A stretch of DNA of 32,726 nucleotides, from NCBI GenBank assembly GCA_029865985.1, contig JARXAF010000194.1, positions 1-32,726 of the forward strand, given 5' to 3'. Position numbers and translations under genes: made by a program. Below the pieces are notes generated by a model, which did not search any database, was not told the DNA's origin, and was given only the letters and a program-made list of their open reading frames with translations. The stretch is from Verrucomicrobiota bacterium. GTDB lineage: Bacteria > Verrucomicrobiota > Verrucomicrobiia > Limisphaerales > UBA9464. Positions 5,964 through 21,008 of this stretch are shown here, piece by piece (position 1 is the stretch's first letter; every line of letters starts with the position of its first letter).

Positions 5964-6488
5964 TTATTCGGCCGAACCGTCGCGACCCGAAGACGGAACC
6001 GGATCGGTGTCCGGGGTCTTCAGGATGAGCAGCACCAGGCCAACGCACGTGAACATGCGCGTGGCGGCTGTCTGGCCGTTCCACACCTGGGATTGCCACA
6101 TCAAGAACCATTCGGCACCCACCATGAGAAAGGCCGTGAACCACAACACCAGATTGGCCGTGAGGGCGCCCACGGCCAGCGACTTGGCCGCATTGAAAGC
6201 GGCAGCAGATTGTCCACGCGCCCGCCACAAGACCAGCGCACCGGCCGCAATGCCCAAGCCCGAGAGCGCCTCCCAGGCGATGATCGTCCAGTAGAAGGCG
6301 TGGTGCAGGGCGGGCGTGCTGATGGCCCGCCACTTCAACTGGTTGCCCGGAAAGGTGGTATCCATCGAGAGCACATGCTGCACGAAGTCGAAATTGGATC
6401 CGTAGTCGGTGATGTTGTTGAAGGCGATCAGCGCCATGAACAGGGCGACCGCGGCCAGCAAGGTGATCTTGGAGAAACGTTCAATCAT
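5964..6488 (-). CDS. DUF2165-like small integral membrane protein
   Basis: A 174-residue protein with four hydrophobic segments, roughly residues 7-23, 62-86, 98-121 and 137-153. The sequence (IERFSKITLLAAVALFMAL, NNITDYGSNFDFVQHVLSMD, TFPGNQLKWRAI, LHHAFYWTIIAWEA) matches what I know of the DUF2165 family of predicted inner-membrane proteins, whose function is unknown. Its ATG overlaps the stop of the preceding binding-protein gene by four bases (ATGA at 6485-6488), so the two are probably translationally coupled. That points to a role with the transport system, but it does not resemble an ABC permease. The frame is open further upstream (to 6608) only as a shadow of the neighbour. Confidence 0.8.
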   Translation of the reverse strand: MIERFSKITLLAAVALFMALIAFNNITDYGSNFDFVQHVLSMDTTFPGNQLKWRAISTPALHHAFYWTIIAWEALSGLGIAAGALVLWRARGQSAAAFNAAKSLAVGALTANLVLWFTAFLMVGAEWFLMWQSQVWNGQTAATRMFTCVGLVLLILKTPDTDPVPSSGRDGSAE

Positions 6489-7501
6489 GGTCGGGTGGCT
6501 GTGGGGGTGTTGGTGGCGTTGCAGAACTCGCCGGTCCAGGCCGTCGCCGGATCGAATTTTCCGCGCAGGACGCCGAGTTTCTGGAGTGTCTCGAACTGAA
6601 ATTTCCACCGAGCCTCCGACAGGCGGCCAGCCGCCTCGCCCTTGGCTGGATCGCCGTTCAGGAAAGACCCCTGCTTCAACGCCTGATGGCTGAAGTTCAT
6701 CTTGGCCGGAGTGAGCTCGGGATTACGCCTGCGGATCTCGGCGTGCACCTCGGTGGGATCCTCCATGTAGCCTTTCCAGCCGCGCACACTCGCTGTTACG
6801 AAAGCCCGGACCCGATCGGGATGTTCGGTCGCGAATTCACGCCGCGTGAAGAAAACCCGGTACGGATCGAAACCGCTGCCACTGATGAGCAGCACGCGGG
6901 CCTTCACACCCGCCTCGGCCGCAAAGAAGGGTTCACTGGTGACGAAGCACATCTGGATGTAATCCGGATCCCGCAGGAAGGATCCGATGCTGAAATTGTG
7001 GGCGCGCTCACGGGTGGTCTTCAGGCCATAGCGCTGGATCAAATACGGAAACCATGCGGTGCCGGGGGTCACGGCCACGGTGCGCCCTTCCAGATCGGCG
7101 AAAGTCTTCACCGGCGAGGATTCGTGCACCATGATCGCCTGTGGATCGTGCTGCAGCGTGGCCGCAACGGCGATGATTGGGATGCCCCGATCATTGGCCA
7201 GGAGCACATCATCAGTGCTGCCCATGCCGAACTCGGCCGCCTTGGTGGCGATGCGTTGGATCGGAAACGCATTGGGTCCTCCGGGCAAAATCTCCACATC
7301 GAGCCCAGCCTCTCGATAGTAGCCCTTGATCAGCGCGAAGTAGAAGCCTCCGTGTTCGGGTTGGGGATACCAGTCGGTGATGAGTCGCACGGGTGCGCGA
7401 TCGGCCGCCATGGAAACCAGAGCGACCCACAAGAGACTCCAACGAGCGACGATGGCGATCGGGCCAGGCATGGATTTCATTCGGAAATTTTGGGAAGTCA
7501 T
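6485..7501 (-). CDS. NMT1/THI5-like ABC transporter substrate-binding protein (copy 1)
   Basis: A 338-residue secreted binding protein. A signal peptide covers roughly residues 1-32 (hydrophobic ARWSLLWVALVSMAADRAP, no lipobox Cys). The mature part begins VRLITDWYPQPEHGGFYFA, then GYYREAGLDVEILPGGPN, the opening of the NMT1/THI5/SsuA family that binds hydroxymethylpyrimidine, formylaminopyrimidine, riboflavin or sulfonates. HDPQAIMV..SSPVKTFADLEGRTV and SGFDPYRVF are shared almost word for word with the lipoprotein at 8893-10002, so the two are paralogues. Its ATG overlaps the amidohydrolase stop (ATGA 7498-7501) and its stop overlaps the DUF2165-like start. No permease or ATPase is encoded on this strand; the ABC core at 17654-19242 is the likely partner. 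Confidence 0.87.
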   Translation of the reverse strand: MTSQNFRMKSMPGPIAIVARWSLLWVALVSMAADRAPVRLITDWYPQPEHGGFYFALIKGYYREAGLDVEILPGGPNAFPIQRIATKAAEFGMGSTDDVLLANDRGIPIIAVAATLQHDPQAIMVHESSPVKTFADLEGRTVAVTPGTAWFPYLIQRYGLKTTRERAHNFSIGSFLRDPDYIQMCFVTSEPFFAAEAGVKARVLLISGSGFDPYRVFFTRREFATEHPDRVRAFVTASVRGWKGYMEDPTEVHAEIRRRNPELTPAKMNFSHQALKQGSFLNGDPAKGEAAGRLSEARWKFQFETLQKLGVLRGKFDPATAWTGEFCNATNTPTATRP

Positions 7502-8868
7502 TTGACCACGCCGTCGTGGTAGCGGCGGGCCACTTTGCGGTGCTTGGCCAAGAGTTTCGGCAAATCCACGCCTACCAATTGTCCCTCACGAACGCGCACC
7601 TGCCCGTGGACCAGCAACGTGTCCACCTGACGCGCATGGCAGAGCACCAGTCCATGCACTGGATTGTGGGCGCCATTGCTGAAGAGGTCTTCCAGCGGAA
7701 AGACTGCCACATCGGCGCATTTGCCTGGTTCCAGCGATCCCAGATCAGCGAGCCGTCCGAGATTCCGGGCGCCATCGAGCGTGGCCATTTCCAGGGATGC
7801 TTCCGGCGTCATCGCTTCAGCCCCGTGGACGACCCGCGTGAGGAGCAACGCCAACCGGGCTTCGTTGAGCAAGTGACCCGAATCGTTGGAAGCCGATCCA
7901 TCGACCCCCAGACTGACCGGGCTGCCACCCCGACGGAGGTCGTTGACCCGGCAGACACCCGATCCCAATCGCATGTTGGAGCAGGGGCAGTGGGCCACGC
8001 CGGTGCGGGTCTTGGTCAAGCGGGCAACCTCGCGATCGTTGAAGTGGATACCGTGGGCCAGCCAGACGTCCTCGCCTTCCCATTCGTGTCGGGCCATGTA
8101 CGCAAAGGGGCGGGAGCCGAGTACCTTCACCGCGTCTTGGTTCTCGGGAATGGTCTCGCCGCAATGGGTGTGCAGACGGGCGCCGAGGGAACGACCCAGC
8201 CGGGCCGATTGTCGGTAATGTTCGCCGGAGCACCCAAACACCGTGCACGGGGCAAAGGCCACCTGCGACATCGCTCCGATCCCCCGCTGGTGGAACCGGT
8301 CGTGCAGACGCTGGCAATCGGCCAGGATCACATCGAGGTCCTGGCAGGCCCACTCGGGCATGATGTCACTGGGCAAATTCACCGAGCCCCGGCAACCGAC
8401 GTAGCGGATACCCATGGCCGCCGCCGCATTGAATCCCGCATCGAGCATCCCGGCGCTACCATCGCGGGGAAACAAGTAGTGGTGGTCACTGGTCAGGGTA
8501 CAACCGCTGAGCATCAACTCGGCACAGGCCACTTGGGTGGCCACATACAAGTCGTCAGGATTGAAATGACGCCACAACGGCATGTGCCCGGCCAGCCACG
8601 GCAAGAGCGGCAAACTGGCGATGGGCTCAAAGGCCCGCGCCAAGTTCTGGAACATGTGGTGGTGGGTGTTGATGAGCCCCGGCAATGCGATGCCGCCTCG
8701 GGCATCCACCACCGTGGCCTTGGCCACCCGCGGCGCTGGGCCGGTCCCCACGGAGCGAATCACGCCATCCTCGGCCAGCAACCACGCGTTCCGGAGGACA
8801 CGACGATCCGGATCCATGGTGACCAGATGACCGATGTTCTTGAGGAGGGTTCGGGAAACTGGGTTCAT
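7498..8868 (-). CDS. Amidohydrolase, 8-oxoguanine deaminase / hydroxydechloroatrazine ethylaminohydrolase-like
   Basis: A 456-residue cytosolic metal-dependent amidohydrolase. Metal and catalytic motifs seen: LINTHHHMFQN (His69-71), SDHHYLFP (128-134), HTHCGE (233-238), AHGIHF (His272) and GVDGSASND (321-329, Asp323). The combination HHHMFQ, CTLTSDHHYLFP, GVAHCPCSNMRL and VDGSASND is characteristic of 8-oxoguanine deaminases (8-oxoguanine to urate plus ammonia) and of the related triazine hydrolase AtzB, as opposed to guanine deaminase or SAH deaminase. Full length. It sits 24 bp after the lipoprotein gene and overlaps the next gene by 4 bp, so it is co-transcribed with two binding proteins. 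The exact substrate is not determined by these motifs; a deaminating or dechlorinating step on a purine, pterin or triazine ring is what the family does. Confidence 0.85.
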   Translation of the reverse strand: MNPVSRTLLKNIGHLVTMDPDRRVLRNAWLLAEDGVIRSVGTGPAPRVAKATVVDARGGIALPGLINTHHHMFQNLARAFEPIASLPLLPWLAGHMPLWRHFNPDDLYVATQVACAELMLSGCTLTSDHHYLFPRDGSAGMLDAGFNAAAAMGIRYVGCRGSVNLPSDIMPEWACQDLDVILADCQRLHDRFHQRGIGAMSQVAFAPCTVFGCSGEHYRQSARLGRSLGARLHTHCGETIPENQDAVKVLGSRPFAYMARHEWEGEDVWLAHGIHFNDREVARLTKTRTGVAHCPCSNMRLGSGVCRVNDLRRGGSPVSLGVDGSASNDSGHLLNEARLALLLTRVVHGAEAMTPEASLEMATLDGARNLGRLADLGSLEPGKCADVAVFPLEDLFSNGAHNPVHGLVLCHARQVDTLLVHGQVRVREGQLVGVDLPKLLAKHRKVARRYHDGVVK

Positions 8869-8892: not shown

Positions 8893-10002
8893 CTACGGTT
8901 TTGGGGACGGCGCGGGAGAATTCGTCCAAAACGGTGGCGGCAAGGACGGGTCTAGACCCAAGGCCTGAGGCGTGAAAGCTGTGGAAACCACCGACTCCAG
9001 CGGCGGCACCGCTGGAATCACTCCGAGATCCTTCAAGATAAGTCCCAGCGAGCGCCAACGCTCCAAATCCACTGCCCCCATGGCTTCTGCACGGGTGGGA
9101 TCACCCTCCACCAGACGGAGTTGGCGCAATGTCACGTAGCTGAAGCGCATGCCACCGTCTTCCATGGTCGGTGAGATCGAACGAAGGAAATCATGGATCG
9201 GCTGGGGATTGCGGTAGTACTCCTGCCAACCGCGATAGGCGCCGCGACTGAACCGGGCCACCAGCTCCGGATGTTTCTCAACGAGTTGACGGTTGGCGAT
9301 GATCACGCGGTACGGATCGAACCCCGACTCGCTGATTTGGAGCACCCGGGATCGAACCCCTTCCTTCAGTGCGTAGTACGGCTCACTGGTCGGATAGGCC
9401 TGCGTGATCCAGTCGGGATCCTTGACGAAATTGGCCACATTGCCGGTCACCGGCCGAACGCGTATCCGGCTCAAGGCGTGCTTCTTCTGCAAGTACTGCA
9501 GCCAGGTCGCCCCGATTTGCATGGCGATGTCCCGATTCTCCAAATCGGCGAAGGTCTTCACCGGGGAGTCTTCGCGAACCATGATGCCCTGCGGATCGTG
9601 CTGGAAGTAGGCGTTGACGGCGACAATGGGCAAACCCCGTTCCACAGCCACAAAAACAGAATCGCCGCGAACAATACCCAAACCGAACGGATCCAGCGCC
9701 ACCCGCTTCTCGATCTCAGAATTCGGCCCCCCAACCAGCACGTTGACTGTCACCCCCTCTGCCTTCCACAAACCCAGACGATCTGCGGCGTAATAGCCTC
9801 CGTGCTCGGGTTCGGGGATCCAGTCGTGGATGAAGTTGAGGGCCGGCCCGTTGGTGGTGCCCGGAGCGGTCTCCTTGGCGGATGAAACGGAATCCGAAGG
9901 CGAACAACCCGTCGCGGCTAGAATGAGAAATCCGGCAACGACCCGGAGACAAAGCCTATGTAAAAACGCCGACTCATTGGAGGAATCATGCATGGTTTTC
10001 AT
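8893..10002 (-). CDS. NMT1/THI5-like ABC transporter substrate-binding lipoprotein (copy 2)
   Basis: A 369-residue binding protein with a lipoprotein signal (VVAGFLILAATGC, lipobox Cys near residue 33). The mature domain opens LNFIHDWIPEPEHGGYYAA..GLWKAEGVTVNVLVGGPN and shares QHDPQGIMV, SPVKTFADLE, TSEPY and SGFDPYRV with the binding protein at 6485-7501. A proline-rich tail ends the protein. The ATG at 10002 is chosen because the signal peptide starts there; an in-frame ATG at 9993 is possible and a longer frame to 10059 would run into a terminator hairpin. It is the first gene of a four-gene operon and lies 68 bp after the TonB receptor, from which it is separated by that terminator. Its own promoter is not obvious. 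Confidence 0.86.
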   Translation of the reverse strand: MKTMHDSSNESAFLHRLCLRVVAGFLILAATGCSPSDSVSSAKETAPGTTNGPALNFIHDWIPEPEHGGYYAADRLGLWKAEGVTVNVLVGGPNSEIEKRVALDPFGLGIVRGDSVFVAVERGLPIVAVNAYFQHDPQGIMVREDSPVKTFADLENRDIAMQIGATWLQYLQKKHALSRIRVRPVTGNVANFVKDPDWITQAYPTSEPYYALKEGVRSRVLQISESGFDPYRVIIANRQLVEKHPELVARFSRGAYRGWQEYYRNPQPIHDFLRSISPTMEDGGMRFSYVTLRQLRLVEGDPTRAEAMGAVDLERWRSLGLILKDLGVIPAVPPLESVVSTAFTPQALGLDPSLPPPFWTNSPAPSPKP

Positions 10003-10070: not shown

Positions 10071-12509
10071 TCAGAACCGGAAACGGACCTGACCACTGAT
10101 CCGGAACGGTTGTTCCGGATAAATCACGTCATTGCCGGCGAAACTCGGATCAATGGAGGTCCAGTTCCGTTGGTCGGTAATGTTGAAGAAGTTGATTTGC
10201 ACGTCCCACTTCGGCTGGCGGTAGAACACGAACGCGTTGATCACGTACTGCATAGGGATGCGAAGCGATCCCTCTTGGTTCTGCCACTGTTCACCGGTGA
10301 CTTGCGGGCCGAAGCTGGCGCCAAAGCCGTTGTCCAACTGATAGGTGACGTAAGAGTTGAACATCACCTGAGGCACACTGGCCGCCCGAGTTTTGCCGAA
10401 GGCGCGCGCCGGGGTGGTAGGTCCTTGTGTGTTGTAGTTCGGAGCGCCGCCACCGGTGCCGGAGACGCCGTCGACCAGGAATCCGACGGGGTAACCGTCA
10501 CGATAGTTGTAGGTCTGCTGGTATCCGAAGTCGTCCTGCTCCGCGTTCTGGTAGGTGAAGTTGGCGCTGGCGTTGAAGTTCCGGTTGGGCTGGTAGAAGG
10601 ACTCCAGCTCCACTCCCTTGGTCTCGATACCAATCGGATTGCCGACCAACTGCGGGGCCAAGCGGGTTTGCTGGAAGAGCGACCCGCTCACAAACACCTT
10701 GTTCTCAAAGAGACTAGCCTTCGACCCCACCTCGATGAGCTCGCTCTCGGTGGACAAGGATTTCTTGAGCGAGCCCTCCGTGTTGCCCGTGCCATTCACA
10801 CCACCGAAATTGGCGCTGCCCTGAATGGCGTTGATCACATTGTAAGTGGCATAGCTGGTAAGAACCGGCGTCCACTTGTAAATGCCGCTCAAAAACACGG
10901 AGGTATTGAAGACGTCCGTGGAGACATTGTAGTTCGAACCCGCAGCCTTGCCGACGTACTCCGGACTCTTGGCCTGCGCCCCGATGAGATCGCCACGGCC
11001 ACCAGCGATGATGGAGAACTTGTCGTGCAGCTTCATGTCCCACTGAGTGAAGAAGCCGCTCTGAGCGATCTCGGAATTCTGATCGCCCGCTCCAAACCCG
11101 TTGGAGCCGTAGCCCGGAGCACCCGGCACCATGAGTGAACTTCCGCCGTAGGTAGTCACCAGCGGGGTGGGAGGCAACCGGAACGTTGAAGGCGGCTGGG
11201 TGACGTCATACAGGAAAAACGGTTCGACGCCGAAATCCTGATAGGAAACGAGCGACTGGTAGCGCAAGTCCACGCCGCTGATGGTCTTGATGGGCAGCTC
11301 GTAATTGGCGATAGCCGGCGTGATTTCGTAGTGGAGCTCCGAACGGTTGTTGGCCATCCAGTTTTCCGGCACCCATTCGGTGTAGCCATAACCCGAGGCC
11401 TTGCGGGACTCCATGGTCTCGCCGTAGGTCCGATTGACGATCTTTCCGAAATCGTTGATCTGGTAGTTGGCGATGAGCTGCGAAGAGAACTTCTGGCCAG
11501 CCGCGCTATCAAAGGGCGCGTTGATCGTCTGCCACGGATAAACCTTCACCCGCGTGGCCAGGTTGGTGTTGAGCAGCGCGAAGTTGGCGTTCTGACCGAA
11601 TTTGCCAACGGACGTGAGCGGATCGCCGAAGCGGTTGTTGGGAAGCACCGGACCGGCGATGTACACCCAATCATCAATCAGCTCCTGGGTGACACGGTTG
11701 ATGCCGATGACCTCGTTGAAGCGGGAGGTGTAGAACTGAGAATTCCAATCAATGGTCAGCTTCTCATTGGCCTTCCAAGTCAAGGCGGTGAAGATGTCCT
11801 GCGTGTTGTCGGTGACGTTTCGGTAGTAGCCGTCGGCCTCGCGTCCGAGGTAGCTCACCCGGAAAGCCAACTTGTCGTTGATGGGTCCTCCGAAATCGAT
11901 GCCCCACTCCGGATTGAAGTAGCTTTGACCACCGGGAACGTAGGTTCCCCAGCGGCTCAGAACTTCTCCGTGGAATCCGTCGAAGTACGGCAGCTTGGAG
12001 ACGAAGTTCACGTAGCCGCCCGGACCTTGTCCTTGTGGGCCATAGACCGCGGAACCGGGTCCCTTGACGATGTCCATGGCCTCCACGCCGTTGAAGCTGG
12101 CGAGCATGGAGTTGCGGCTGTAAATCGTCCGCTGACCGTTTTGGTAAATTTCCGAAAGGTCACCGCGGATGACCGGCACATTGGCCAAACCGTAACGGGA
12201 CGGGGTGTAAACGCCCGGAGAGTACTGATTGAAATCCGTGGCGCGGGAAATCGCACGGGCTTCCATCTGGGCCTTGGTCACCAGAGACACCGAGCGGGGC
12301 GTCTCCAGAATGCTGCGGTCGTCACCCATGACCGACTCCACCGGGCGAGCCGTCGGTAGAACCGTGTCTTGGAGGGACAAACCTTCGACGACGACCTTGT
12401 CCAGGACGTTCGTGGAACCTGCACTCTGGGCCAAGGCCGAGGCTCCACTGGCCAAAGCCAAAGTGGCAATCGATCCAATGCGGATCGGCAACCATAGGGA
12501 GGTTTTCAT
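10071..12509 (-). CDS. TonB-dependent outer membrane receptor
   Basis: An 812-residue outer-membrane receptor. A signal peptide of about 27 residues ends ASALAQ. A TonB-box-like DKVVVEG follows near residue 37. The plug domain at about 60-175 contains ETPRSVSLVTKAQM, VPVIRGD, MDIVKGPGSAVYGPQG and GGYVNFVSKLP. The remaining ~630 residues are aromatic-rich alternating strands of a 22-strand barrel, ending in the outer-membrane sorting signal VRFRF. The plug resembles the siderophore-receptor subfamily (FhuE/FecA-like), but such receptors also import vitamins and other scarce ligands. Here it lies beside three NMT1-like binding proteins and a catabolic operon, so a heterocyclic ligand is as likely as an iron chelate. 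It is transcribed alone, probably from a sigma-54-like promoter at 12582-12596, and ends at a clear terminator. Confidence 0.93.
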   Translation of the reverse strand: MKTSLWLPIRIGSIATLALASGASALAQSAGSTNVLDKVVVEGLSLQDTVLPTARPVESVMGDDRSILETPRSVSLVTKAQMEARAISRATDFNQYSPGVYTPSRYGLANVPVIRGDLSEIYQNGQRTIYSRNSMLASFNGVEAMDIVKGPGSAVYGPQGQGPGGYVNFVSKLPYFDGFHGEVLSRWGTYVPGGQSYFNPEWGIDFGGPINDKLAFRVSYLGREADGYYRNVTDNTQDIFTALTWKANEKLTIDWNSQFYTSRFNEVIGINRVTQELIDDWVYIAGPVLPNNRFGDPLTSVGKFGQNANFALLNTNLATRVKVYPWQTINAPFDSAAGQKFSSQLIANYQINDFGKIVNRTYGETMESRKASGYGYTEWVPENWMANNRSELHYEITPAIANYELPIKTISGVDLRYQSLVSYQDFGVEPFFLYDVTQPPSTFRLPPTPLVTTYGGSSLMVPGAPGYGSNGFGAGDQNSEIAQSGFFTQWDMKLHDKFSIIAGGRGDLIGAQAKSPEYVGKAAGSNYNVSTDVFNTSVFLSGIYKWTPVLTSYATYNVINAIQGSANFGGVNGTGNTEGSLKKSLSTESELIEVGSKASLFENKVFVSGSLFQQTRLAPQLVGNPIGIETKGVELESFYQPNRNFNASANFTYQNAEQDDFGYQQTYNYRDGYPVGFLVDGVSGTGGGAPNYNTQGPTTPARAFGKTRAASVPQVMFNSYVTYQLDNGFGASFGPQVTGEQWQNQEGSLRIPMQYVINAFVFYRQPKWDVQINFFNITDQRNWTSIDPSFAGNDVIYPEQPFRISGQVRFRF

Positions 12510-12581
12510 TGAGGGATGGGTACGGAGGATGAGTTGGGTTGTTTGAGTGCAACGGGGGTCAGTCGCTGTGAGAGCCTCTCC

Positions 12582-12596
12582 GCATACCTCATGCCA
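12582..12596 (-). promoter_or_regulatory. Candidate sigma-54 (RpoN) promoter for the TonB receptor gene
   Basis: The minus strand reads cTGGCATGAGGTATGC. Against the consensus YTGGCACG-N4-TTGC this keeps TGGCA and TGC with the obligatory GG-N10-GC spacing; mismatches are C to T in the -24 box and one T to A in the -12 box. A start site about 12 nt downstream would give a leader of about 60 nt before the ATG at 12509. An NtrC-type activator is encoded at 4453-5895. Confidence 0.5.
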
Positions 12597-12737
12597 GCTT
12601 CCAAATGGGTACCCACTGCCCGATCACTTTGACTGCACGATGGATCCCGCCGAGCCAACCGGCCGGACATCTCTTTGCATCGAATCCTTTGGATAAACAG
12701 GGGTTTGCACGGCATCGGCACCGGTGCATTTCATCTG

Positions 12738-12773
12738 TTGATGAAGCGCTTCAATGGTTGATCTAGCGTTTCA
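12738..12773. promoter_or_regulatory. Tandem operator/enhancer-like repeats
   Basis: TTGATGAAGCGCTTCA (12738-12753) and TTGATCTAGCGTTTCA (12758-12773) match at 13 of 16 positions and are offset by exactly 20 bp, two helical turns. The first contains the perfect 12-bp palindrome TGAAGCGCTTCA. The sites lie about 145-180 bp upstream of the sigma-54-like element, where NtrC-type activators bind, and about 210-240 bp before the deaminase ATG. The CG-centred palindrome also resembles LacI/GalR operators, so either regulator class is possible. Confidence 0.55.
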
Positions 12774-12979
12774 TGAATCGATTTCAGCCTGCTCTGATTG
12801 GGACAAACAACCCGGGTTTCTCGGGAGGTGTTTTAATTTATCCACCGTGGGCAGAGACAAGACGGAAACGCGGTGCCCGACGGCGTCCAAATCGCAGACA
12901 CGTTCTTCCTATCCGGTTGTTTTCGCTCAATTGCCGCGGTCCATGGGGAGTGGAACACCGTGTGCTTGAAAAAAGCGCG

Positions 12980-13528
12980 ATGGCCCCAAACCACCGAATC
13001 TCCCGCGATCAGGATCTGGAGCAAATGCAGTCTCTGGTCGATTTCACCCGCGCCCGTCTCGGCACGGAGGCCCAATCGCCCTTCGGGTCTTCTGTGGTCG
13101 AAACTGAAACCGGCCGCTTGGTCCTGCGTCGGCTCAATGCTGTGCGCAAAGAAAATGATCCTTCGAGCCACGCCGAGGTTCGAACCATGCGAGCCGCCTG
13201 CAAACGGCTCAAGAAACCCAGCCTCGCCGGGCATACCTTGTACACGACCTGCGAGCCCTGCCCCATGTGCATGGCCATGGCATTGTGGTCGGGCGTGGAT
13301 CGAGTGGTGTTTGGAGCGACCATCGCCGATGCATCCAAGCACTGCGCCCAAATCTACGTCTCCGCCAAGCAGCTCCAACAACGCTCTGACATGGATTGCC
13401 GGGTCGAGGGACCGGTGGCGCGGGCCAGTTGCGTCGCGCTCTTCGAAGATCCCCGGATGGTTGAGGCTATGTCCTTGTGGCGCAAATCGCGTCGGATGAC
13501 ATCCAAGCAAAAGCCATCGAAACGCTGA
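12980..13528 (+). CDS. Nucleoside/guanine deaminase of the CDA fold (TadA/GuaD-like)
   Basis: A 182-residue zinc-dependent deaminase of the cytidine-deaminase superfamily. The active site is SHAEVRTM (His64, catalytic Glu66) and TTCEPCPMCMAMALWSG (zinc Cys94 and Cys97). SPFGSSVVETETGRLV before the HAE motif and RVVFGATIADA after the PCxxC motif are usual for this group. Likely reaction: hydrolytic removal of an exocyclic amino group from a free purine, pterin or pyrimidine base. tRNA adenosine deaminase is less likely given the catabolic operon and the long C-terminal tail. The ATG at 12980 is taken as start because the 69 upstream in-frame residues look like non-coding sequence. First gene of an eight-gene operon, 82 bp before the FAD oxidoreductase. 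Confidence 0.82.
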   Translation: MAPNHRISRDQDLEQMQSLVDFTRARLGTEAQSPFGSSVVETETGRLVLRRLNAVRKENDPSSHAEVRTMRAACKRLKKPSLAGHTLYTTCEPCPMCMAMALWSGVDRVVFGATIADASKHCAQIYVSAKQLQQRSDMDCRVEGPVARASCVALFEDPRMVEAMSLWRKSRRMTSKQKPSKR

Positions 13529-13610: not shown

Positions 13611-15044
13611 ATGACCACTGCCGACTTCAACGCCCTGGCCGAACTCCTTCCTCCCGAGCGCATCGTCACCGCTGCCGAACGACTCGAAGCCTTGAGCCGC
13701 GACTTCTACTGGTACTCGCCCGTCCTCAAGCGGGATCTGTCCGACAAGCTGGCCGAAGTCGTGGTGCAACCCACCTCGCGGGCTGAAGTGGTGGCTATTG
13801 TCAGCTTCGCCTACCAACGGCGGATTCCCCTGACCTTGCGCGGAGCCGGTACCGGCAACTATGGCCAATGCATCCCGACGCACGGAGGCATGGTCATGGA
13901 CCTGGCCGCACTCGATACAATCCATTCCATCAGTCCCGACGGCATCGTGACGTGTGATCCGGCGGCTCGACTGGGGGCCATCGAGCGGGTCGCGCGGCAG
14001 TCCGGCTGGGAATTGCGCTGCTACCCCAGCACCTACGTGAAGGCCAGCGTGGCCGGTTTCTGCGCGGGAGGCTCTGGCGGCATTGGCAGCATTCAGTGGG
14101 GAGCGCTGCGGGAGAATGGCACAGTGCACTCGCTCACGGTTTTGTCGCTGGAGGCGCAACCGCGCGAAATACGTCTGAGCGGTCCAGATATCTTTCAAGT
14201 GCTGCATGCCTGGGGCACCAACGGCATCATCATCGAGGTGGAGCTGCGTTTGGCTCCGAAAACCGACTGGGGACAACTGGCCGTGGCCTTCGACGACTTC
14301 GCCGAGGCTTTCGACTTCGCCGAGGCCATCTCCCGGAATGACTCCTTCCAAAAGCGCCTCGCCACGGTCTTCGAATGGCCCATCACCGCTTCGTTCACGC
14401 CGTTGCAGAAGTGGATTCCGACCGGGAAGGCGCTGTGTTTTTTTGAGATCGCCGACCCTCAGCTGCAACGCTTGTCCGATGCAGCGCGGAACGCCGGCGG
14501 ATCCCCCTGCTTCATCGCACCATTTTCCGAACCCCGGCGCGGAGCTCAATTGAGCGACTACACCTGGAACCACACCACTCTCTGGGCACTCAAACAGGAC
14601 CCGTCGCTCACCTACCTCCAGTGCGGGTTCTCGGCCACCGAAGCACGGAGCCAGTTCCGTGCCTTGAAGTCGCGCTATGGGAACGACTTTCTCCTCCACA
14701 TCGAGTTCGTGCGATCGGGTGGTGTCATCACGCCAGGAGCCATTCCGGTCGTTCGCTACACCGATGACCAACGCCTTCAGGGAATGATCGATTTCTGTGG
14801 CACCATCGGTGTCTCGGTGGCCAACCCGCATGTGAATTTCCTCGAGGCCTCCGGGCGCTGGCGGCCCGACGATGCCAAACGCAAGGCCAAGGAACTGTAC
14901 GACCCGCGTGGACTCCTCAATCCGGGTAAAATGCGCGACTTCAAGCCGGAGGCATCCAGCGACACCACGCCAGCCAACCCCACTCCGACTGGGACACCTC
15001 AAGAAAGTCTCACGACGGCCCGGGTTCAACCCGTTTCCGCCTGA
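13611..15044 (+). CDS. FAD-binding (PCMH-type) oxidoreductase
   Basis: A 477-residue flavoenzyme of the GlcD/VAO-like superfamily. The PCMH FAD-binding domain occupies about residues 48-225. EVVVQPTSRAEVVAIVSFAYQ leads to RIPLTLRGAGTGNYGQ (71-86), the pyrophosphate-binding segment, then MVMDLAALDTI and CDPAARLGAIE. The second half ends with NPHVNFLEASG and YDPRGLLNPGKMRDF, the usual C-terminal FAD-contacting motif of this family. A Thr/Pro-rich tail follows. The sequence does not show the substrate; the family oxidises alcohols, hydroxy acids, lactams or ring carbons. Its position between a deaminase and a creatininase-family hydrolase suggests ring oxidation before ring opening. Confidence 0.87.
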   Translation: MTTADFNALAELLPPERIVTAAERLEALSRDFYWYSPVLKRDLSDKLAEVVVQPTSRAEVVAIVSFAYQRRIPLTLRGAGTGNYGQCIPTHGGMVMDLAALDTIHSISPDGIVTCDPAARLGAIERVARQSGWELRCYPSTYVKASVAGFCAGGSGGIGSIQWGALRENGTVHSLTVLSLEAQPREIRLSGPDIFQVLHAWGTNGIIIEVELRLAPKTDWGQLAVAFDDFAEAFDFAEAISRNDSFQKRLATVFEWPITASFTPLQKWIPTGKALCFFEIADPQLQRLSDAARNAGGSPCFIAPFSEPRRGAQLSDYTWNHTTLWALKQDPSLTYLQCGFSATEARSQFRALKSRYGNDFLLHIEFVRSGGVITPGAIPVVRYTDDQRLQGMIDFCGTIGVSVANPHVNFLEASGRWRPDDAKRKAKELYDPRGLLNPGKMRDFKPEASSDTTPANPTPTGTPQESLTTARVQPVSA

Positions 15045-15065: not shown

Positions 15066-15854
15066 TTGAAAACTTGGATCCCACCGGAACGTTTCCTGCC
15101 CTACCTCACCTGGAAACAGGTCGACGCATTGCCGCGTGACCGGACCTTGCTGGTGCTGCCCACCGCGGCCATCGAGCAACATGGGCATCACCTACCGCTG
15201 GCCACTGACACGCTCATCAACAACCTCCTGCTCGGGCACGCTCTCCAGAAGCTCCCCAAGGACCTTCCCGTCTTTGCTTTGGCTCCGGTGCATTACGGCA
15301 AGAGCAACGAGCATGTCGGCTACCCCGGGACACTCAGCCTGCACCGGGACACCTTCATCGCCGTGCTCCGGGACCTCGGGCGCAGCATCAAAGCCGCCGG
15401 TTTCCAGAAACTGGTGTTCTTCAACAGCCACGGCGGCAATCACTCGCTCATTGATGTCATGGCCCGAGACCTGCGAGACGAACTGGGGCTCCGCACCTTC
15501 TGCCTGTACGGAGGCGGGCCGGCCGAGGGAGTAAATCCTCAGGAGGCGGCCTATGGCTTCCACGCTGGCGAAGTGGAAACCGCTCTGCTGCTGGCCGGAA
15601 CCCCGGAGTTGGTCCACACCGACCAGTATACGACGAACTACATCGCCCGCGTCGGTGATCCGGGACTCCTGAAGCCGGAGTTTACCAGCGCCACCTTCTC
15701 GTGGTTGACCCGCGACATCGCACCCAGCGGCGTGATGGGTGATCCCTCACCCGCCACCGCCGATAATGGTTGGCGCTGGTGTGAAGCCATGAGCGACCGG
15801 ATCGCCAAAGCACTCATCGAAATGCACGATTTCCGGGAGATCCTGGAGCGCTGA
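15066..15854 (+). CDS. Creatininase-family amidohydrolase
   Basis: A 262-residue cytosolic metal-dependent hydrolase of the creatininase fold (creatinine amidohydrolase, FAPy deformylase ArfB, MftE). Metal ligands and family motifs: AIEQHGHHLPLATD (35-48, with Glu37, His39 and Asp48), KSNEHVGYPGTLSL (79-92), FFNSHGGNHSLID (118-130) and FHAGEVETALLL (165-176). Length matches the family. The start appears to be TTG at 15066, 21 bp after the previous gene; no in-frame ATG or GTG fits before the conserved region. The family hydrolyses cyclic amides or formamides, which fits ring opening or deformylation of a heterocycle. Specificity is not decidable here. Confidence 0.88.
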   Translation: MKTWIPPERFLPYLTWKQVDALPRDRTLLVLPTAAIEQHGHHLPLATDTLINNLLLGHALQKLPKDLPVFALAPVHYGKSNEHVGYPGTLSLHRDTFIAVLRDLGRSIKAAGFQKLVFFNSHGGNHSLIDVMARDLRDELGLRTFCLYGGGPAEGVNPQEAAYGFHAGEVETALLLAGTPELVHTDQYTTNYIARVGDPGLLKPEFTSATFSWLTRDIAPSGVMGDPSPATADNGWRWCEAMSDRIAKALIEMHDFREILER

Positions 15855-15863
15855 GGAGCCACC

Positions 15864-17657
15864 GTGGCGAAACGCTCCCCAACATCCAGCACGCGCGCAC
15901 GACAGCAACCTGTCGGAGAACGCGTCGCGGTGGGGTCTGGGGTGACGGTCGAGCGGGGGGTGCGTTTCCGACTACCTGACGGCACCGTTCTCATTTCCGA
16001 CCACTACTACCCGCCCGAGCCGGGTCCGACCCCGACGCTGCTGATGCGTCAACCCTACGGTCGATGCGTGGCCAGCACGGTAGTCTATGCCCAGCCTGCG
16101 TGGTTTGCTGCTCAGGGCTACAACGTGGTCATCCAAGATGTACGCGGCCGCGGAGAGAGCACCGGTTCCTTTTATCCGTTCCGTCATGAAGGTCGAGACG
16201 GGGCTGCCACGATCCATTGGCTGGCCGGTCGCTCGGAGTGCAACGGTCGGATTGGCATGTACGGATTCAGCTACCAGGGCCTGACTCAACTTTTGGCAGC
16301 GGCCGAACAGCCGGCGGCCCTGCGCTGCATCGCTCCAGCTCAAACGGCGGGCGATTTGTTCTCTGGATGGTTCTATCATCAGGGTGCCTACCGATTGGCT
16401 TCCAGCGTTGGCTGGGCGCTGCAAATGCTCCGAGGGGACGCCCGCAAGCGACGACTCCGCTCGGCCAGTGGCCAACTGGAAGAGGCGGCGACTCGACTCC
16501 CGGCACTCATGGCCAGTGGGCCTTACTCTCGCATCGCCTGTCTCACAGCCCGCGGTCTCCCGACGTACCACCGCGATTGGACGATGCATCGTCAGGCCGG
16601 GCCCTGGTGGTCCCGACACGATGTCAGCACGCGGATGGATCGGATCCAAATTCCGGCTCTGCACATGTGGGGTTGGTTCGATACCTATCTCGATGGCAGT
16701 GAACAGCTCTACCAGCGCCTTCTGCGAGAATCGAAGGCTCCCCAATATCTGGTGGCGGGCCCATGGAACCACATTCCGTGGAGCCGGTACTCGGGCGAAG
16801 TCGACCATGGGCCAGACGCAGTCTTGGATACCGATCGCCTCCTGCTGCGTTGGTTCAACCACTGGCTGAAAGACTCCGGCGAGTTTGACAGCGAGCCACG
16901 CGTGCGTTCCTTCGCGCTGGGTGAGAACCGCTGGCATCCACTGACCGCATGGCCGCGGCCATCCCATCCAACCCGACAGGCCGAGCCAAACCCATCGGTC
17001 CAAAACTGGTTCCTTGATTCGGACGGGCGAGCCAATGCCATTCAGGGTGACGGGCGACTTTCGCTGACCGCACCCACTGGGTCCCGTCCGCGCGACGGAT
17101 TCGTCCACGAACCAGAGGCACCCGTCGCCGCTCCGGGGCCGGGTGCGGCTCCGGGCGCTTATCTCCAGAACCGCCAGGACTCCATGAACAACGTCCTAGT
17201 CTACACGAGTCCTGTGCTCACCGAGCCGCTGCGTATCGCAGGACGACCCCGTGTTTGCTTGCACGCCACCAGCCGAACCGCCTCAGCAGACTTGGTGGCG
17301 AAGCTCGTCCGAGTGCTGGCCGATGGGCGCTCGTACAATGTGTGCCTCGGCATTGCCCGCAGTTCCTGGCTCTTCGGTTCTCAAGGGTTGATTCCGGATC
17401 GGGTGCAGTGCTGGGAATTCGATCTCGAGCCCTCCCATTGCGTCTTTGCCACGGGCGAACGCCTGCGACTCATCGTCACGGGCAGCGCCTTCCCGCTCTA
17501 CGATCGCAACCCCGGTTCGGATGTCTCACCAGAAGCCGCCAGTTCTTGGGACTGGCAGCAGAACCAACAGCAAATCGTCCACGACCTGAATCATCCCTCC
17601 TGCCTCCAGCTGCCGCTGGAGCCCCGCACCGTCCACAACGAAGTCGGCACAACATGA
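15864..17657 (+). CDS. CocE/NonD-family alpha/beta hydrolase (X-Pro dipeptidyl-peptidase-like)
   Basis: A 597-residue serine hydrolase. An N-terminal alpha/beta domain opens VRFRLPDGTVLISDHYYP and has VVIQDVRGRGESTGSFYPF (88-106), the nucleophile elbow GFSYQG (Ser136), a probable acid Asp273 (WGWFDTYLDGS) and a probable His303 (AGPWNHIPWS). The C-terminal jelly-roll (PepX_C) spans about 340-590, ending in ERLRLIVTGSAFPLYDRNPG. No signal peptide, so cytosolic. Members cleave esters and amides such as cocaine or acyl-dipeptides. Start is GTG at 15864, preceded by GAGGAG a few bases upstream, one of the few good Shine-Dalgarno sequences in the window. It lies 9 bp after the creatininase gene and overlaps the ABC ATPase by 4 bp. 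Confidence 0.88.
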   Translation: MAKRSPTSSTRARQQPVGERVAVGSGVTVERGVRFRLPDGTVLISDHYYPPEPGPTPTLLMRQPYGRCVASTVVYAQPAWFAAQGYNVVIQDVRGRGESTGSFYPFRHEGRDGAATIHWLAGRSECNGRIGMYGFSYQGLTQLLAAAEQPAALRCIAPAQTAGDLFSGWFYHQGAYRLASSVGWALQMLRGDARKRRLRSASGQLEEAATRLPALMASGPYSRIACLTARGLPTYHRDWTMHRQAGPWWSRHDVSTRMDRIQIPALHMWGWFDTYLDGSEQLYQRLLRESKAPQYLVAGPWNHIPWSRYSGEVDHGPDAVLDTDRLLLRWFNHWLKDSGEFDSEPRVRSFALGENRWHPLTAWPRPSHPTRQAEPNPSVQNWFLDSDGRANAIQGDGRLSLTAPTGSRPRDGFVHEPEAPVAAPGPGAAPGAYLQNRQDSMNNVLVYTSPVLTEPLRIAGRPRVCLHATSRTASADLVAKLVRVLADGRSYNVCLGIARSSWLFGSQGLIPDRVQCWEFDLEPSHCVFATGERLRLIVTGSAFPLYDRNPGSDVSPEAASSWDWQQNQQQIVHDLNHPSCLQLPLEPRTVHNEVGTT

Positions 17658-18454
17658 CACCGACAGCCACCTCACAGCCGCCCTTCATCACCCTCGAAGG
17701 GGTCACCAAGCGATGGTCCAATGGGGCGACGGTCCTGGATGGCATCACGCTTCGGGCCGACCGGGGGGAGTTCATTTCACTCATCGGCCCCAGCGGGTGT
17801 GGCAAGTCCACGCTCTTGCGACTGCTGGCGGGTTTGTCTCCTGTGAGCTCCGGTTCCGTGAAGCTCGACGGGATGCAGCCGGAATCGGCCCGTGAGATCA
17901 TGTCGTTCATTTTCCAGGATGCCACGCTGCTGCCGTGGCGCACCGTTCGATCCAATGTGGAACTCGGCCTCGAACTGGAGGGCAAGACCACCGAATCACA
18001 GCGCCGAGCGACGTCCACGGCGCTGCTGCAACTCGTTGGTCTTTCCGATGTGGCAGACCTCCATCCACGGCAGCTGAGCGGCGGCATGCGCATGCGCGTG
18101 TCTATTGCTCGGGCATTGGCGACACAGCCGAAGATTTTACTGATGGATGAACCCTTCGGCGCACTGGACGAAATGACCCGGGATTTCCTCAACGAAGAAG
18201 TGCTGCGCCTGCGGGAGAACGATCGGTTCACCACCTTCTTTGTGACCCACAGCGTGGCCGAAGCGGTCTTTCTCTCGAATCGCATCCTCGTGCTGCGGGC
18301 CAAGCCAGGCCAGATCGCGGCCGAGATTCCAGTTCCCTTCCCATTTCCGAGAACCGCTGAACTGCGCAGTGCCCCGGAGTTCCTTCGCCTGGTCGGCGAG
18401 GTGAGTGCTGCACTGCGGGCGGTCCAAAACCCTGCAAGCCACGGACATCCATGA
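17654..18454 (+). CDS. ABC transporter ATP-binding protein (nitrate/sulfonate/pyrimidine type)
   Basis: A 266-residue ABC ATPase of the SsuB/TauB/ThiZ group. Walker A GPSGCGKST (45-53), Q-loop FIFQDATLLPWRTV (86-99), signature LSGGM (141-145), Walker B ILLMDEP (161-167), D-loop FGALDEMTR, and H-loop FFVTHSVAEAVFLS. The phrase LLPWRTV and the short C-terminus are typical of the group that works with NMT1/SsuA binding proteins. The ATG overlaps the CocE stop (ATGA 17654-17657) and the stop overlaps the permease start, so expression is coupled. It should energise the permease next to it for the binding protein at 19264-20214 and possibly for the two on the opposite strand. Confidence 0.93.
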   Translation: MTPTATSQPPFITLEGVTKRWSNGATVLDGITLRADRGEFISLIGPSGCGKSTLLRLLAGLSPVSSGSVKLDGMQPESAREIMSFIFQDATLLPWRTVRSNVELGLELEGKTTESQRRATSTALLQLVGLSDVADLHPRQLSGGMRMRVSIARALATQPKILLMDEPFGALDEMTRDFLNEEVLRLRENDRFTTFFVTHSVAEAVFLSNRILVLRAKPGQIAAEIPVPFPFPRTAELRSAPEFLRLVGEVSAALRAVQNPASHGHP

Positions 18455-19242
18455 AGAGGCTCCTGATCCAGGCCGCGTGGCCATTGGCGGTGTTGGTCGC
18501 AGTGATCACCGCCTGGGATCTTTGCTGTCGGGGGTTTGCCATCCCCGCCTACGTGCTGCCGCCGCCCTCGGCGGTCCTACGGGTGATCTTGGAGCGCCAC
18601 CAGACCCTTTGGAATGCGTTTCGCATCACGGCGATCGAGGCCGGTGGTGGCTACCTCCTCAGCATCATCGGTGGCGTGGTCATTGCCCTCTTCTTTGCCC
18701 AGAGCCCACTGGTCCGCCGATCGTTCTACCCCTACACCATCTTGCTCCAGACAGTTCCAATCGTCGCGATCGCGCCATTGATCCTGATGTGGTTCGGATC
18801 GGGCCTGCGCAGCGTCATGCTGGTGGCCTTTGTGATTTGTCTGTTTCCCATCATCGCCAACACCACCCAGGGACTCATCAGCGTGCCCCGGAACTTGATC
18901 GACCTCTTTGTCATGTCCAACGCATCGCGGTCTCGGCAGCTGTTGAAATTGCGTTTGCCCCATGCACTCCCGCACCTCTTTGTCGGCCTACGCATTTCGG
19001 CGGGCATATCGGTGATCGGTGCGGTGACGGGCGAACTCTTCGCCAGTTCCAACGCCGTCGGCGAAGGTGGGCTGGGGTATTCCATCACTTATGCCAACAG
19101 CCAGCTTCAGACCGATTACCTGTTCGCTCTGGTGCTGACCGCCAGTCTGTTGGGTTTCCTCTTCTTCTTCACCGTGACAGCTCTGGAATGGCTCTGCCTG
19201 CGAAAGTGGCATGAGTCCGCCATGAAGACCGACGCCGACTGA
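18451..19242 (+). CDS. ABC transporter permease (SsuC/ThiX-like)
   Basis: A 263-residue inner-membrane permease of the BPD_transp_1 family with about six hydrophobic segments: residues 7-26, 67-84, 90-110, 120-138, 180-200 and 228-250. The periplasm-proximal YVLPPPSAVL after the first helix and the cytoplasmic coupling loop around LKLRLPHALPHLFVGLRIS (the EAA-like motif) are family hallmarks. GEGGLGYSITYANSQLQTDYLFA near the end is typical of nitrate/sulfonate/pyrimidine permeases. It forms a homodimeric channel with the upstream ATPase. It overlaps that gene by 4 bp and is 21 bp before the binding-protein gene. Confidence 0.93.
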   Translation: MKRLLIQAAWPLAVLVAVITAWDLCCRGFAIPAYVLPPPSAVLRVILERHQTLWNAFRITAIEAGGGYLLSIIGGVVIALFFAQSPLVRRSFYPYTILLQTVPIVAIAPLILMWFGSGLRSVMLVAFVICLFPIIANTTQGLISVPRNLIDLFVMSNASRSRQLLKLRLPHALPHLFVGLRISAGISVIGAVTGELFASSNAVGEGGLGYSITYANSQLQTDYLFALVLTASLLGFLFFFTVTALEWLCLRKWHESAMKTDAD

Positions 19243-19263: not shown

Positions 19264-20214
19264 ATGAAAACCTACCGAATGATTCTCTGCCTTCTGGCTC
19301 TCGCACTACGAGTCTCTGCGGCCGAGGCGGTTCCTGTGACCTTCCAGCTCGACTGGAAACCCACGGCCCAGTTTGCCGGCCTCCTCATGGCCCGCGAACG
19401 AGGTTGGTACCGGGAGGCCGGCATTGATCTCACATTGAGGGGCATTCCCCCGGATGAAGGGGTGGTGAGCAATGTCGTTCATCACCCGCACTGGATTGGA
19501 AGCATCGAGAGCGGGGTGTTGCTCAAGGAACGCTCCTCGGGGCGTCCGGTCAAGGCCATCGGCACCATGCTGCAAGGGACGCCCATTGGCTTGATCAGCC
19601 TCAAATCCGCCGGCATCCACCAGTTGAAGGACCTCATCGGAAAACGCATCGGCGTCCATGCCGACGGAAATGAAGCGGTGAAATATGTCCTGCACCACGC
19701 CGGCATCGGTGCTGGGCGCATCGAAGTCGAAGTGGTGGGCTACGACCTGACGCCGCTGCTCAATGGGCGATATGCCGCCGTCCAAGGTTACTCCATTGAT
19801 GAAGGGGTCGCGTTGCGGCAAGCCGGTCACGACATCGATATCCTCCATCTCCACGACATTGGCTACGCCGCCTATGGTCAGGTGTATTTCACCAGTGAAT
19901 CCTTCCTCAAATCGGATGCTCCGCTGCTGCGCCGCTTTCTGGAGGTTTCTCGTCGTGGCTGGGCTACAGCGATCCAGGACCCGGATGCCATCGCCACAAT
20001 GGTCACGGCCACTGTCCCAGGGACCGATCGTCGTCATGAACGAGGCACGGTTGAAGCGCTCATTCCCATGCTTACCCGTGAAGGCGGCCCAGGTAGCATG
20101 GGGCGGATGAAACGTCAGACTTGGAAACAGGCCGTTTCCGATTTCAATCGACTACCCTCCACCACCTCACGTGTGAAAGTCTCCGATATCGCGACCTTCG
20201 ATTTGCAGCCATGA
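19264..20214 (+). CDS. NMT1/THI5-like ABC transporter substrate-binding protein (copy 3, cognate to the permease)
   Basis: A 316-residue secreted binding protein with a signal peptide ending near LALRVSAAEA. The mature start VTFQLDWKPTAQFAGLLMARERGWYREAGIDLTL is the classical NMT1/THI5 (ThiY/RibY-like) opening, where LDWxPxxxFAG contacts pyrimidine-like ligands in characterised members. HQLKDLIGKRIGVHADG and YDLTPLLNGRYAAVQGY fit the family. It is clearly more distant from the two minus-strand copies than they are from each other. Its place directly after the permease makes it the cognate receptor. The stop overlaps the flavodoxin-like gene by 4 bp. Confidence 0.9.
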   Translation: MKTYRMILCLLALALRVSAAEAVPVTFQLDWKPTAQFAGLLMARERGWYREAGIDLTLRGIPPDEGVVSNVVHHPHWIGSIESGVLLKERSSGRPVKAIGTMLQGTPIGLISLKSAGIHQLKDLIGKRIGVHADGNEAVKYVLHHAGIGAGRIEVEVVGYDLTPLLNGRYAAVQGYSIDEGVALRQAGHDIDILHLHDIGYAAYGQVYFTSESFLKSDAPLLRRFLEVSRRGWATAIQDPDAIATMVTATVPGTDRRHERGTVEALIPMLTREGGPGSMGRMKRQTWKQAVSDFNRLPSTTSRVKVSDIATFDLQP

Positions 20215-21008
20215 CCGTTCGGGTCCTGCATTTCTCGCCGGGCACGGCAACGGATCGCCATGACAGTCATCGGGCCGCTTTGGGGTTCGTCCATTACCTC
20301 CAAACGGTCGATCCAAAACCCTTCCCCGAGGTGATTTGCGAATTGGTTTGGGCTCTTCCGTCGATCGATCAAACTTCAAAGGTCCATGAACTATTGAGAG
20401 GGGCCGACGTCGTAGTGGTCGCCACTCCGGTGTACGGTCAGGGTTCTCCGTGGTTCCTGCGGAAATTCTTTGAGCAAACGCGGGGTCTGGAGCTGTGGGG
20501 AACTCTGGGCACCGCCTTCGCCACATCCGGCGGACAGCATACCGGCGGAGAAATGGCACTGCTGGACACCTTCCGTTCGCTCCAAGGCTGCGGAGCTTGC
20601 ACCTTCACCTTTGCCCAAAAGTTGACCGTGATCGGGATGCAACAGCGTCCTCGACCCGACGGTGAATTCGACCTGATCGACGCTTGGTTTCTGCGCCAAT
20701 TGGCCCGGACCTGTCTGGTGCAAAGGGTGGCACAGCGGGATCGATCGGAGGGCGCCATCTGGGCCCAACGGCTGGGTGTTCAATCGGCTTACTACCTCGA
20801 CTTTCCGGACGCCGCACGTCTCGAAGACGAGGTGGGCGATGTGTGCCATTGGATGAATGAACCCTTGATCGATCCAGTATCCGCTTACGAGCGATGGTCG
20901 CAGCGATTGGGTTTTTCGGCACGCCCTCCTGAAGCACGCTCTCTTCCGTTTGCTGGACTCTTCCCGGAGCCCGGGGTTCAACGGCCGGTGGCGAAATGGG
21001 ACTCATAG
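20211..21008 (+). CDS. Flavodoxin-fold NAD(P)H-dependent oxidoreductase-like protein
   Basis: A 265-residue protein. The N-terminal half has a flavodoxin-like pattern: strand VRVLHFSPG (phosphate-binding loop region), then GADVVVVATPVYGQGSPWFLRKFFEQT (64-90), as in FMN reductases and WrbA-like proteins, and LGTAFATSGGQHTGGEMALL. The C-terminal ~100 residues are not recognised. It may supply reduced flavin or act on a quinone or nitro group. The ATG at 20211 overlaps the stop of the preceding binding protein (ATGA), so I reject the longer frame from 20121. It is the last gene of the operon and its 3' end overlaps the convergent lytic transglycosylase by 31 bp. Confidence 0.75.
   Translation: MTVRVLHFSPGTATDRHDSHRAALGFVHYLQTVDPKPFPEVICELVWALPSIDQTSKVHELLRGADVVVVATPVYGQGSPWFLRKFFEQTRGLELWGTLGTAFATSGGQHTGGEMALLDTFRSLQGCGACTFTFAQKLTVIGMQQRPRPDGEFDLIDAWFLRQLARTCLVQRVAQRDRSEGAIWAQRLGVQSAYYLDFPDAARLEDEVGDVCHWMNEPLIDPVSAYERWSQRLGFSARPPEARSLPFAGLFPEPGVQRPVAKWDS

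Follow-up and report, generated by a model that had tools for sequence, protein, structure and literature searches.

A probable pterin-catabolic gene island with an exchanged deaminase in a Verrucomicrobiota bacterium

Contig JARXAF010000194.1 of a Verrucomicrobiota bacterium (assembly GCA_029865985.1), analyzed as a stretch of 32,726 nucleotides (hereafter the window), carries at positions 5964-21008 (~15 kb) an island of 13 genes in two divergent arms that, on balance, we consider a probable catabolic system for pterin (folate-derived pteridine). We read the island as a variant of a pterin/folate catabolic cassette, a kind of system itself only partly described, in which the deaminase has been replaced and TonB-dependent uptake has been added. 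The gene content, the two arms and the 4-bp gene overlaps reported in an earlier note on this DNA were all recovered, every named gene in its place and the overlaps at five junctions (DUF2165/SBP1, SBP1/amidohydrolase, CocE/ATPase, ATPase/permease and SBP3/FMNred; genes and short names are given in Table 1).

The 6V42-type enzyme, its cassette and its co-inheritance

The PCMH/VAO-type flavin adenine dinucleotide (FAD) enzyme of the island is assigned by sequence to the family of Protein Data Bank (PDB) entry 6V42, titled 'Crystal structure of the flavin oxygenase with cofactor bound involved in folate catabolism'. This entry is the sole PDB sequence matching the enzyme at E<=1e-50 (5e-97), and is also the top fold match of its AlphaFold model (mean predicted local distance difference test score, pLDDT, 88.7) at 39% identity, the match at rank 2 having 19%. 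In a midpoint-rooted tree of 31 rows, 6V42 and the island enzyme fall in one family tree, with 6V42 nested among Rhizobiales; its identity to two Mesorhizobium proteins is 75.7% (locus L127) and 74.8% (L122), and both of these loci hold genes for a creatininase-family protein, RidA, an NMT1 protein, an ATPase, a permease, an amidohydrolase, the FAD enzyme and two flavin reductases.

When an alignment of the FAD enzyme was scanned over genome contigs and the best 80 loci among the matches listed (more exist) were painted with reference proteins, counting neighbors within 6 kb, 46 of the 80 had both ATPase and permease matches and are referred to as cassettes. These 46 include an NMT1 protein in 45, a creatininase-family gene in 42, a flavin-reductase-type gene in 24, RidA in 18 and CocE in 14 (16 of all 80 loci have CocE). 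A further 24 loci have no reference neighbor within 6 kb; all are cyanobacterial by label except L089 (Opitutaceae), and several lie on short contigs. A 6V42-type enzyme with a creatininase-family protein, an NMT1 ATP-binding cassette (ABC) transporter and a deaminase is a widespread cassette, and the island has the creatininase-family gene and the NMT1 transporter beside its FAD enzyme. RidA was not seen in the window, and no search for it was made in the rest of the genome. The seven acidobacterial loci L062-L068 share with the island the identical gene order CDA-PCMH-Creat-CocE-ATPase-Perm, with an SBP1-type protein encoded on the opposite strand and a DUF3891 gene behind (7/7); an amidase gene is present in 6/7, FmdA in 4/7, RidA and DUF2165 in 3/7 each and reductive pyrimidine genes in 2/7. 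The TonB-SBP2-AHase part was not found in the stretches of these loci examined.

The island genes form one co-inherited unit. Among 59 related genomes, own genome included (thresholds E<=0.001 for SBP1, E<=1e-30 for the FAD enzyme and the creatininase family, E<=1e-60 for the island amidohydrolase, AHase), SBP1 was matched in 22, the FAD enzyme in 19, the creatininase-family gene in the identical 19, and AHase in 19, of which 18 are common with the FAD-enzyme set. The mismatches come from G002 (74% complete; an SBP1 fragment lies at the start of one of its contigs) and G015 (a fragment terminates a 5-kb contig). Fisher's test for the FAD enzyme against AHase gave 5e-13, a significance overstated by treating related genomes as independent. 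The arms are adjacent and divergent in 15 of the 19 FAD-enzyme genomes (own included), which argues that the arrangement is not due to chance; an amidase gene sits between them in five of these 15 (L035-L038, L138). Among the other four, contig ends interrupt G012; in G019, G026 and G032 both arms are kept, on different contigs. Within the genus the FAD enzyme is carried by 11 of 19 genomes, the pattern of an accessory trait. The earlier note had proposed a single uptake-and-degradation unit for an N-heterocycle and had named co-occurrence among relatives as the check; these counts bear the proposal out, the genes not being scattered independently. DUF2165 stands beside the cassette in L031-L034, L036-L038, L041-L044, L048, L138, L062, L064, L068 and L110, and thus accompanies it also in some Acidobacteria and one Opitutaceae locus; it was not found at L035. 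In genus g2, second SBP1-AHase pairs off the island, 50-60% identical to the island pair, were observed in L143 (7.3-10k) and L144 (6.4-9k).

Genes for a formamidase-family protein (FmdA) and a DUF3891 protein, located elsewhere in the genome, track the island. They lie side by side on contig C22 of the own genome and occur in the same 21 of the 59 genomes: G010, G015, G018 and all but one of the 19 with the FAD enzyme (Fisher's test 4e-11, again overstated as kin genomes are counted as independent). In relatives, the DUF3891 gene follows the permease (L035, L037, L038, L061, L136-L138, L142), an AtzE-like amidase gene adjoins CDA (L035-L038, L061, L136-L138), and DUF2165 is followed by RidA and a formamidase-family gene in L042-L044 and by RidA alone in L138, which starts there. 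The amidase, on contig C199 in the own genome, was found in 25 of the 59 genomes (18 of the 19 with the FAD enzyme and seven others) and was rejected as a strict member. Reductive pyrimidine genes adjoin the cassette in L062 and L065 and are ~3.6 kb from the FMNred gene in G035, as would be fitting for a pyrimidine intermediate; a reductive pyrimidine pathway in the own genome was rejected, as no PreA scored above its cut-off. To call the system complete, as the earlier note did, was therefore too strong: the formamidase, DUF3891 and amidase genes, part of the cassette in relatives, are found away from the island here, the window showed no RidA, and no PreA in the genome passes the cut-off.

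Deaminases and binding proteins

The cassettes examined use two unrelated deaminases in a mutually exclusive manner. With a tblastn match at E<=1e-6 no more than 6 kb away counted as a cassette amidohydrolase, 27 of the 46 cassettes have an amidohydrolase and 13 (Verrucomicrobiota, Acidobacteriota) an enzyme of the cytidine deaminase (CDA) fold; none has both and six have neither. Cassette amidohydrolases from Rhizobium, Leisingera and a Comamonadaceae bacterium belong to a single family (34-39% identity); the L110, L122 and L051 proteins score above the cut-off of model PRK07583 ('cytosine deaminase'). In the FAD-enzyme tree the CDA carriers (window, L057, L058, L061, L062, L065) are grouped with support 95/93, and their sisters are two Opitutaceae, then Paenibacillaceae. 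An amidohydrolase is carried by the Paenibacillaceae and by L110 (Opitutaceae), where it is 44% identical to the Rhizobium protein and adjoins PCMH, amidase and DUF2165. Given this placement of the amidohydrolase carriers, the CDA enzyme most simply replaced the amidohydrolase once. The L110 protein had no match at E<=1e-20 in the 59 genomes in a search run without a positive control.

The nearest PDB sequence to the CDA enzyme is guanine deaminase 1wkq (E 1e-15), its near sequences being guanine/guanosine deaminases, and the folds nearest to its model (mean pLDDT 85.8) are guanosine deaminase, TadA and the NE0047 guanine deaminase; its score against the NCBIfam TadA model is 47.7, below the cut-off of 150. 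Pterin and guanine have the 2-amino-4-oxo pyrimidine ring in common, which makes a shift of substrate from guanine to pterin plausible, and from its sequence, its fold and the mutual exclusion of the two deaminases we propose the CDA enzyme as a pterin 2-amino deaminase.

The counterpart in other cassettes would be a pterin deaminase of a known type. Arad3529 is a member of the amidohydrolase superfamily, and a 2013 JACS paper on pterin deaminase reportedly speaks of an undescribed pterin degradation pathway. The pterin deaminase (PDA) of Variovorax sp. F1 shares 36-37% identity with Arad3529, and a conserved 'endoribonuclease' gene lies downstream of it (PMC9513972). L128 and L129 have RidA after the amidohydrolase, an arrangement that we liken to this downstream gene, and by such analogy we take the cassette amidohydrolase family to be the Arad3529 family, i.e. 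pterin deaminase.

The second deaminase-like enzyme of the island, AHase, scores 499.2 bits against the NCBIfam model of 8-oxoguanine deaminase (PRK08203), below the cut-off of 532. It is 43% identical to 3hpa, an 8-oxoguanine deaminase, 40% to 7ww2 and 35% to 2PAJ, an isoxanthopterin deaminase. In a tree with three long outgroup branches flagged, AHase forms its own clade beside the 3HPA/7WW2 and 2PAJ clades and does not group with 2PAJ, the two being separate clades, each 100/100. The loci L118 and L135 have amidohydrolases of the 2PAJ clade within or next to their cassettes, and the Pantoea locus L055 also carries one. The creatininase-family enzyme misses the NCBIfam cut-offs for MftE (126.8 vs 172) and creatininase (78.9 vs 235).

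The only NMT1 (PF09084) matches in the genome (est. 92% complete) are the three binding proteins of the island. SBP1 and SBP2 group with the acidobacterial cassette proteins (84/82) in an unresolved inner order; the stems of SBP1 and the acidobacterial proteins are short and that of SBP2 long; SBP3 is distant, on a long separate branch. Import of sulfonate or nitrate was rejected, the NMT1 proteins lying far under the SsuA and taurine cut-offs.

A proposed route and its alternatives

We infer the substrate, the order of the steps and every reaction of the following route. The TonB receptor and the NMT1-type ABC importer with its several binding proteins would import the compound. The CDA-fold enzyme would remove the 2-amino group from the 2-amino-4-oxo pyrimidine half of pterin, the job taken to be done by the Arad3529-like cassette amidohydrolase in Proteobacteria, and AHase may deaminate an oxidized relative (isoxanthopterin-like or 8-oxoguanine-like). 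The 6V42-type flavin oxygenase, with FMNred as a possible flavin reductase serving it, would oxidize the pyrazine half, and the creatininase-family enzyme would hydrolyze the resulting oxidized cyclic amide and thereby open the ring. CocE (acyl amide/ester cleavage) and the unlinked amidase would clear acyl pieces, and the unlinked formamidase FmdA would clear the one-carbon piece by formamide hydrolysis.

Bacterial dismantling of the pterin ring of folate is largely open; the published folate degradation pathway ends at deaminopteroic acid (PMC9513972). The island and its acidobacterial counterpart offer conserved candidates for steps that may come afterwards, namely the flavin oxygenase, the creatininase-family enzyme, CocE, amidase, formamidase, DUF3891 and DUF2165, together with the testable claim that a guanine-deaminase-like CDA enzyme substitutes for the known type of pterin deaminase. 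If true, this would suggest that some uncultured Verrucomicrobia feed on pterins. We put forward more tentatively, as a claim we think rather less probable, that Verrucomicrobiota and Acidobacteriota mineralize pteridines across their membranes, beginning with an undescribed CDA-fold pterin deaminase, breaking the ring with the 6V42-type oxygenase and the creatininase-family enzyme, cleaving the formamide set free with an unlinked, co-inherited formamidase, and in some relatives (L062, L065, G035) passing the pyrimidine to the reductive uracil pathway.

The earlier note had named oxidized purine, pterin, flavin/lumichrome and thiamine pyrimidine as possible substrates; from this list pterin is the best supported, by way of 6V42 and the deaminase slot. 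Its remark that no described pathway has this gene set went too far, because the core cassette is widespread and parts of bacterial folate degradation are published (PMC9513972). In literature searches on 6V42 and 6V43, on the gene set, on the catabolism of thiamine and on the degradation of folate and pterins, this paper alone looked directly relevant.

Several observations weigh against pterin as the substrate or against parts of the route. An identity of 39% to 6V42 leaves room for a changed substrate, the only source for a folate role of 6V42 is the title of its PDB entry, and no publication on 6V42 was found in the searches just named. The 27 cassette amidohydrolases, taken by us for the Arad3529 family, include distant Paenibacillaceae members (27-32% identity), the best model of one of which is PRK07572, below cut-off, and the Leisingera and Comamonadaceae proteins (L052, L054) score 335 and 298 against the PRK07583 cut-off of 403. 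The five Variovorax loci in the set have no RidA match in the painting. Foldseek matches of the CDA enzyme mix guanosine, guanine and tRNA adenosine deaminases, with guanosine deaminase and TadA not separated. FMNred was not found in L031, L033, L039 and L040, nor did it match anything in L051, L052 and L054, loci with reductases of their own. Carboxypeptidase G was not recognized among the island proteins, FmdA and DUF3891 occur in three genomes and the amidase in seven that lack the FAD enzyme, and two links to thiamine metabolism, the PDB matches of SBP1 and SBP3 and the thi genes of two Paenibacillus loci, are taken up below.

The island might instead hold two neighboring systems, the right arm (CDA to FMNred) being the pterin/folate cassette and the left arm (TonB-SBP2-AHase-SBP1-DUF2165) scavenging another ring through a shared ABC importer. 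In G019 the arms lie on different contigs, the 7.4 kb before TonB on C74 being without the right arm and C2 having the right arm and no AHase match; the SBP1-AHase pairs of L143 and L144 stand alone, and the acidobacterial cassettes are without the TonB-SBP2-AHase part in the stretches examined. We nonetheless regard two systems as unlikely: the FAD enzyme and AHase are together in 18 genomes, also where unlinked, with one genome for each alone, the left-arm SBP1 groups with the acidobacterial cassette binding proteins (84/82), and the left arm is without permease or ATPase. Slightly less likely again is uptake with breakdown or salvage of a thiamine pyrimidine (hydroxymethylpyrimidine, HMP, or formylaminopyrimidine), in which NMT1 proteins bind it, deamination occurs at C4, the FAD enzyme oxidizes the hydroxymethyl group and FmdA takes acetamide from C2. 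The best PDB match of SBP1 and SBP3, the two searched, is 4nmy, followed by the thiamine-pyrimidine binders 3ix1 (ThiY; E 3e-13 for SBP1 and 4e-14 for SBP3) and THI5; in two related Paenibacillus, L070 (5482-7925) and L072, thiM-thiD-thiE immediately precede the cassette; and a gene of the acetamidase/formamidase family tracks the island. However, thi genes occur in just two of the 80 loci, both from Paenibacillus with thi proteins 84-92% identical, and no thiamine pyrophosphate (TPP) riboswitch was detected at gathering score in the window, L070 (of the two thi loci the one scanned) and the other 18 loci scanned. The sole close structure of the FAD enzyme is a folate-catabolism enzyme by title, and both island deaminase families are related to enzymes acting on fused 2-amino-4-oxo rings.

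Scavenging of oxidized purines (8-oxoguanine, guanine) would make AHase an 8-oxoguanine deaminase and CDA a guanine deaminase, followed by urate-type oxidation. The score of AHase against the 8-oxoguanine deaminase model, its identity to 3hpa and the proximity of CDA to guanine deaminase by sequence speak for this explanation, which we judge the least likely of the three: AHase stays under the model cut-off in a clade of its own, the seven acidobacterial cassettes do without AHase save for a 29% TRZ/ATZ-type match in L066, and no urate or allantoin gene was recognized among the 13 island proteins.

Gene layout and relation to known systems

In the gene list of Table 1, likely starts were chosen inside the longest open reading frames for CDA (12980), ATPase (17654), FMNred (20211) and DUF2165 (6488); the SBP2 start was set at 10002 in a frame extendable to 10059.

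Table 1. Features of the island
Feature	Position	Strand	Basis
DUF2165 small membrane protein	5964-6488	-	PF09933 E 4e-58
SBP1, NMT1/THI5-like binding protein	6485-7501	-	PF09084 E 3e-39
AHase, amidohydrolase related to 8-oxoguanine deaminase and the 2PAJ clade	7498-8868	-	PRK08203 499.2 bits; tree
SBP2, NMT1-like binding protein	8893-10002	-	PF09084 E 5e-31
TonB-dependent outer-membrane receptor	10071-12509	-	Plug PF07715 E 2e-10; TonB-siderophor E 6e-25, below cut-off
Divergent intergenic region, 470 bp	12510-12979		
CDA, CDA-fold deaminase, motif HAE...PCPMC	12980-13528	+	PF00383 E 5e-18
PCMH/VAO-type FAD enzyme (FAD_binding_4 oxidoreductase), 6V42 relative	13611-15044	+	Sequence, fold, tree
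Creat, creatininase-family hydrolase	15066-15854	+	PF02633 E 7e-65
CocE/NonD-type alpha/beta hydrolase	15864-17657	+	TIGR00976 360 bits, above cut-off 66.3; cocaine esterase structures
ABC ATPase	17654-18454	+	PF00005 E 3e-32
ABC permease	18451-19242	+	PF00528 E 5e-27
SBP3, NMT1-like binding protein	19264-20214	+	PF09084 E 8e-41
FMNred, FMN_red/flavodoxin-fold protein	20211-21008	+	PF03358 E 1e-6

The region between the arms gave no sigma-70-like promoter match, and an Rfam scan of 12400-13100 gave no match at E<=1. At gathering score, apart from tRNAs, the window and 19 other loci gave only two glycine aptamers (L070) and one Acido-Lenti-1 RNA (L066), and the window has no flavin mononucleotide (FMN) riboswitch. 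To the left, an NtrC-like sigma-54 response regulator gene (4453-5895) adjoins DUF2165 and is kept in the same-genus loci L032, L033, L034 and L048; it could control the minus arm. In the loci examined from other genera, no such gene was seen adjoining the island. On the right, the boundary at 21008 is followed by a gene with an SLT transglycosylase domain (20978-21541, minus strand) and by a molybdopterin oxidoreductase gene (21777-22427; PF00174, under the MsrP and sulfite dehydrogenase cut-offs), which stays right of the island in L032-L034, L056, L057 and L141. The window also contains the 2-aminoethylphosphonate-pyruvate transaminase gene phnW (1825-2955, above the NCBIfam cut-off) next to a divergent Peripla_BP_6 binding protein gene (3229-4413), three tRNA genes flanking an EF-Tu-like gene (24304-25888, minus strand), and a gene for a 636-aa radical SAM protein (30808-32718) whose C-terminal region is of the CofH/MqnC type and whose long N-terminal part matches no Pfam family at E<=1e-5.

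The island resembles several known systems in part. With the ThiXYZ importer (ThiY, 3ix1) it shares NMT1/THI5-type binding proteins, one ATPase and one permease; however, the similarity is weak, no thiamine gene is present among the island proteins, and no TPP riboswitch was found in the window. AHase is of the same family as 8-oxoguanine deaminase (3hpa, 7ww2) and 2PAJ, aligning over almost the whole length, but differs from them in its separate clade and its score under the NCBIfam cut-off. With Arad3529 and the Variovorax PDA the CDA enzyme shares the proposed step, deamination of the pterin ring (PMC9513972). The folds are different, the island enzyme having the cytidine-deaminase fold and the known enzymes belonging to the amidohydrolase superfamily. 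The 6V42-type proteobacterial cassette (Mesorhizobium, Rhizobium, Variovorax and others) has in common with the island the FAD enzyme, the creatininase-family protein, the ATPase, the permease and an SBP1-type protein, and in many instances a deaminase and a flavin-reductase-type gene alongside. In contrast to that cassette, the island has a CDA-fold deaminase in place of the amidohydrolase and no RidA was seen in it, and it carries in addition the TonB receptor, two more binding proteins, the 8-oxoguanine-deaminase-like amidohydrolase, DUF2165 and CocE.

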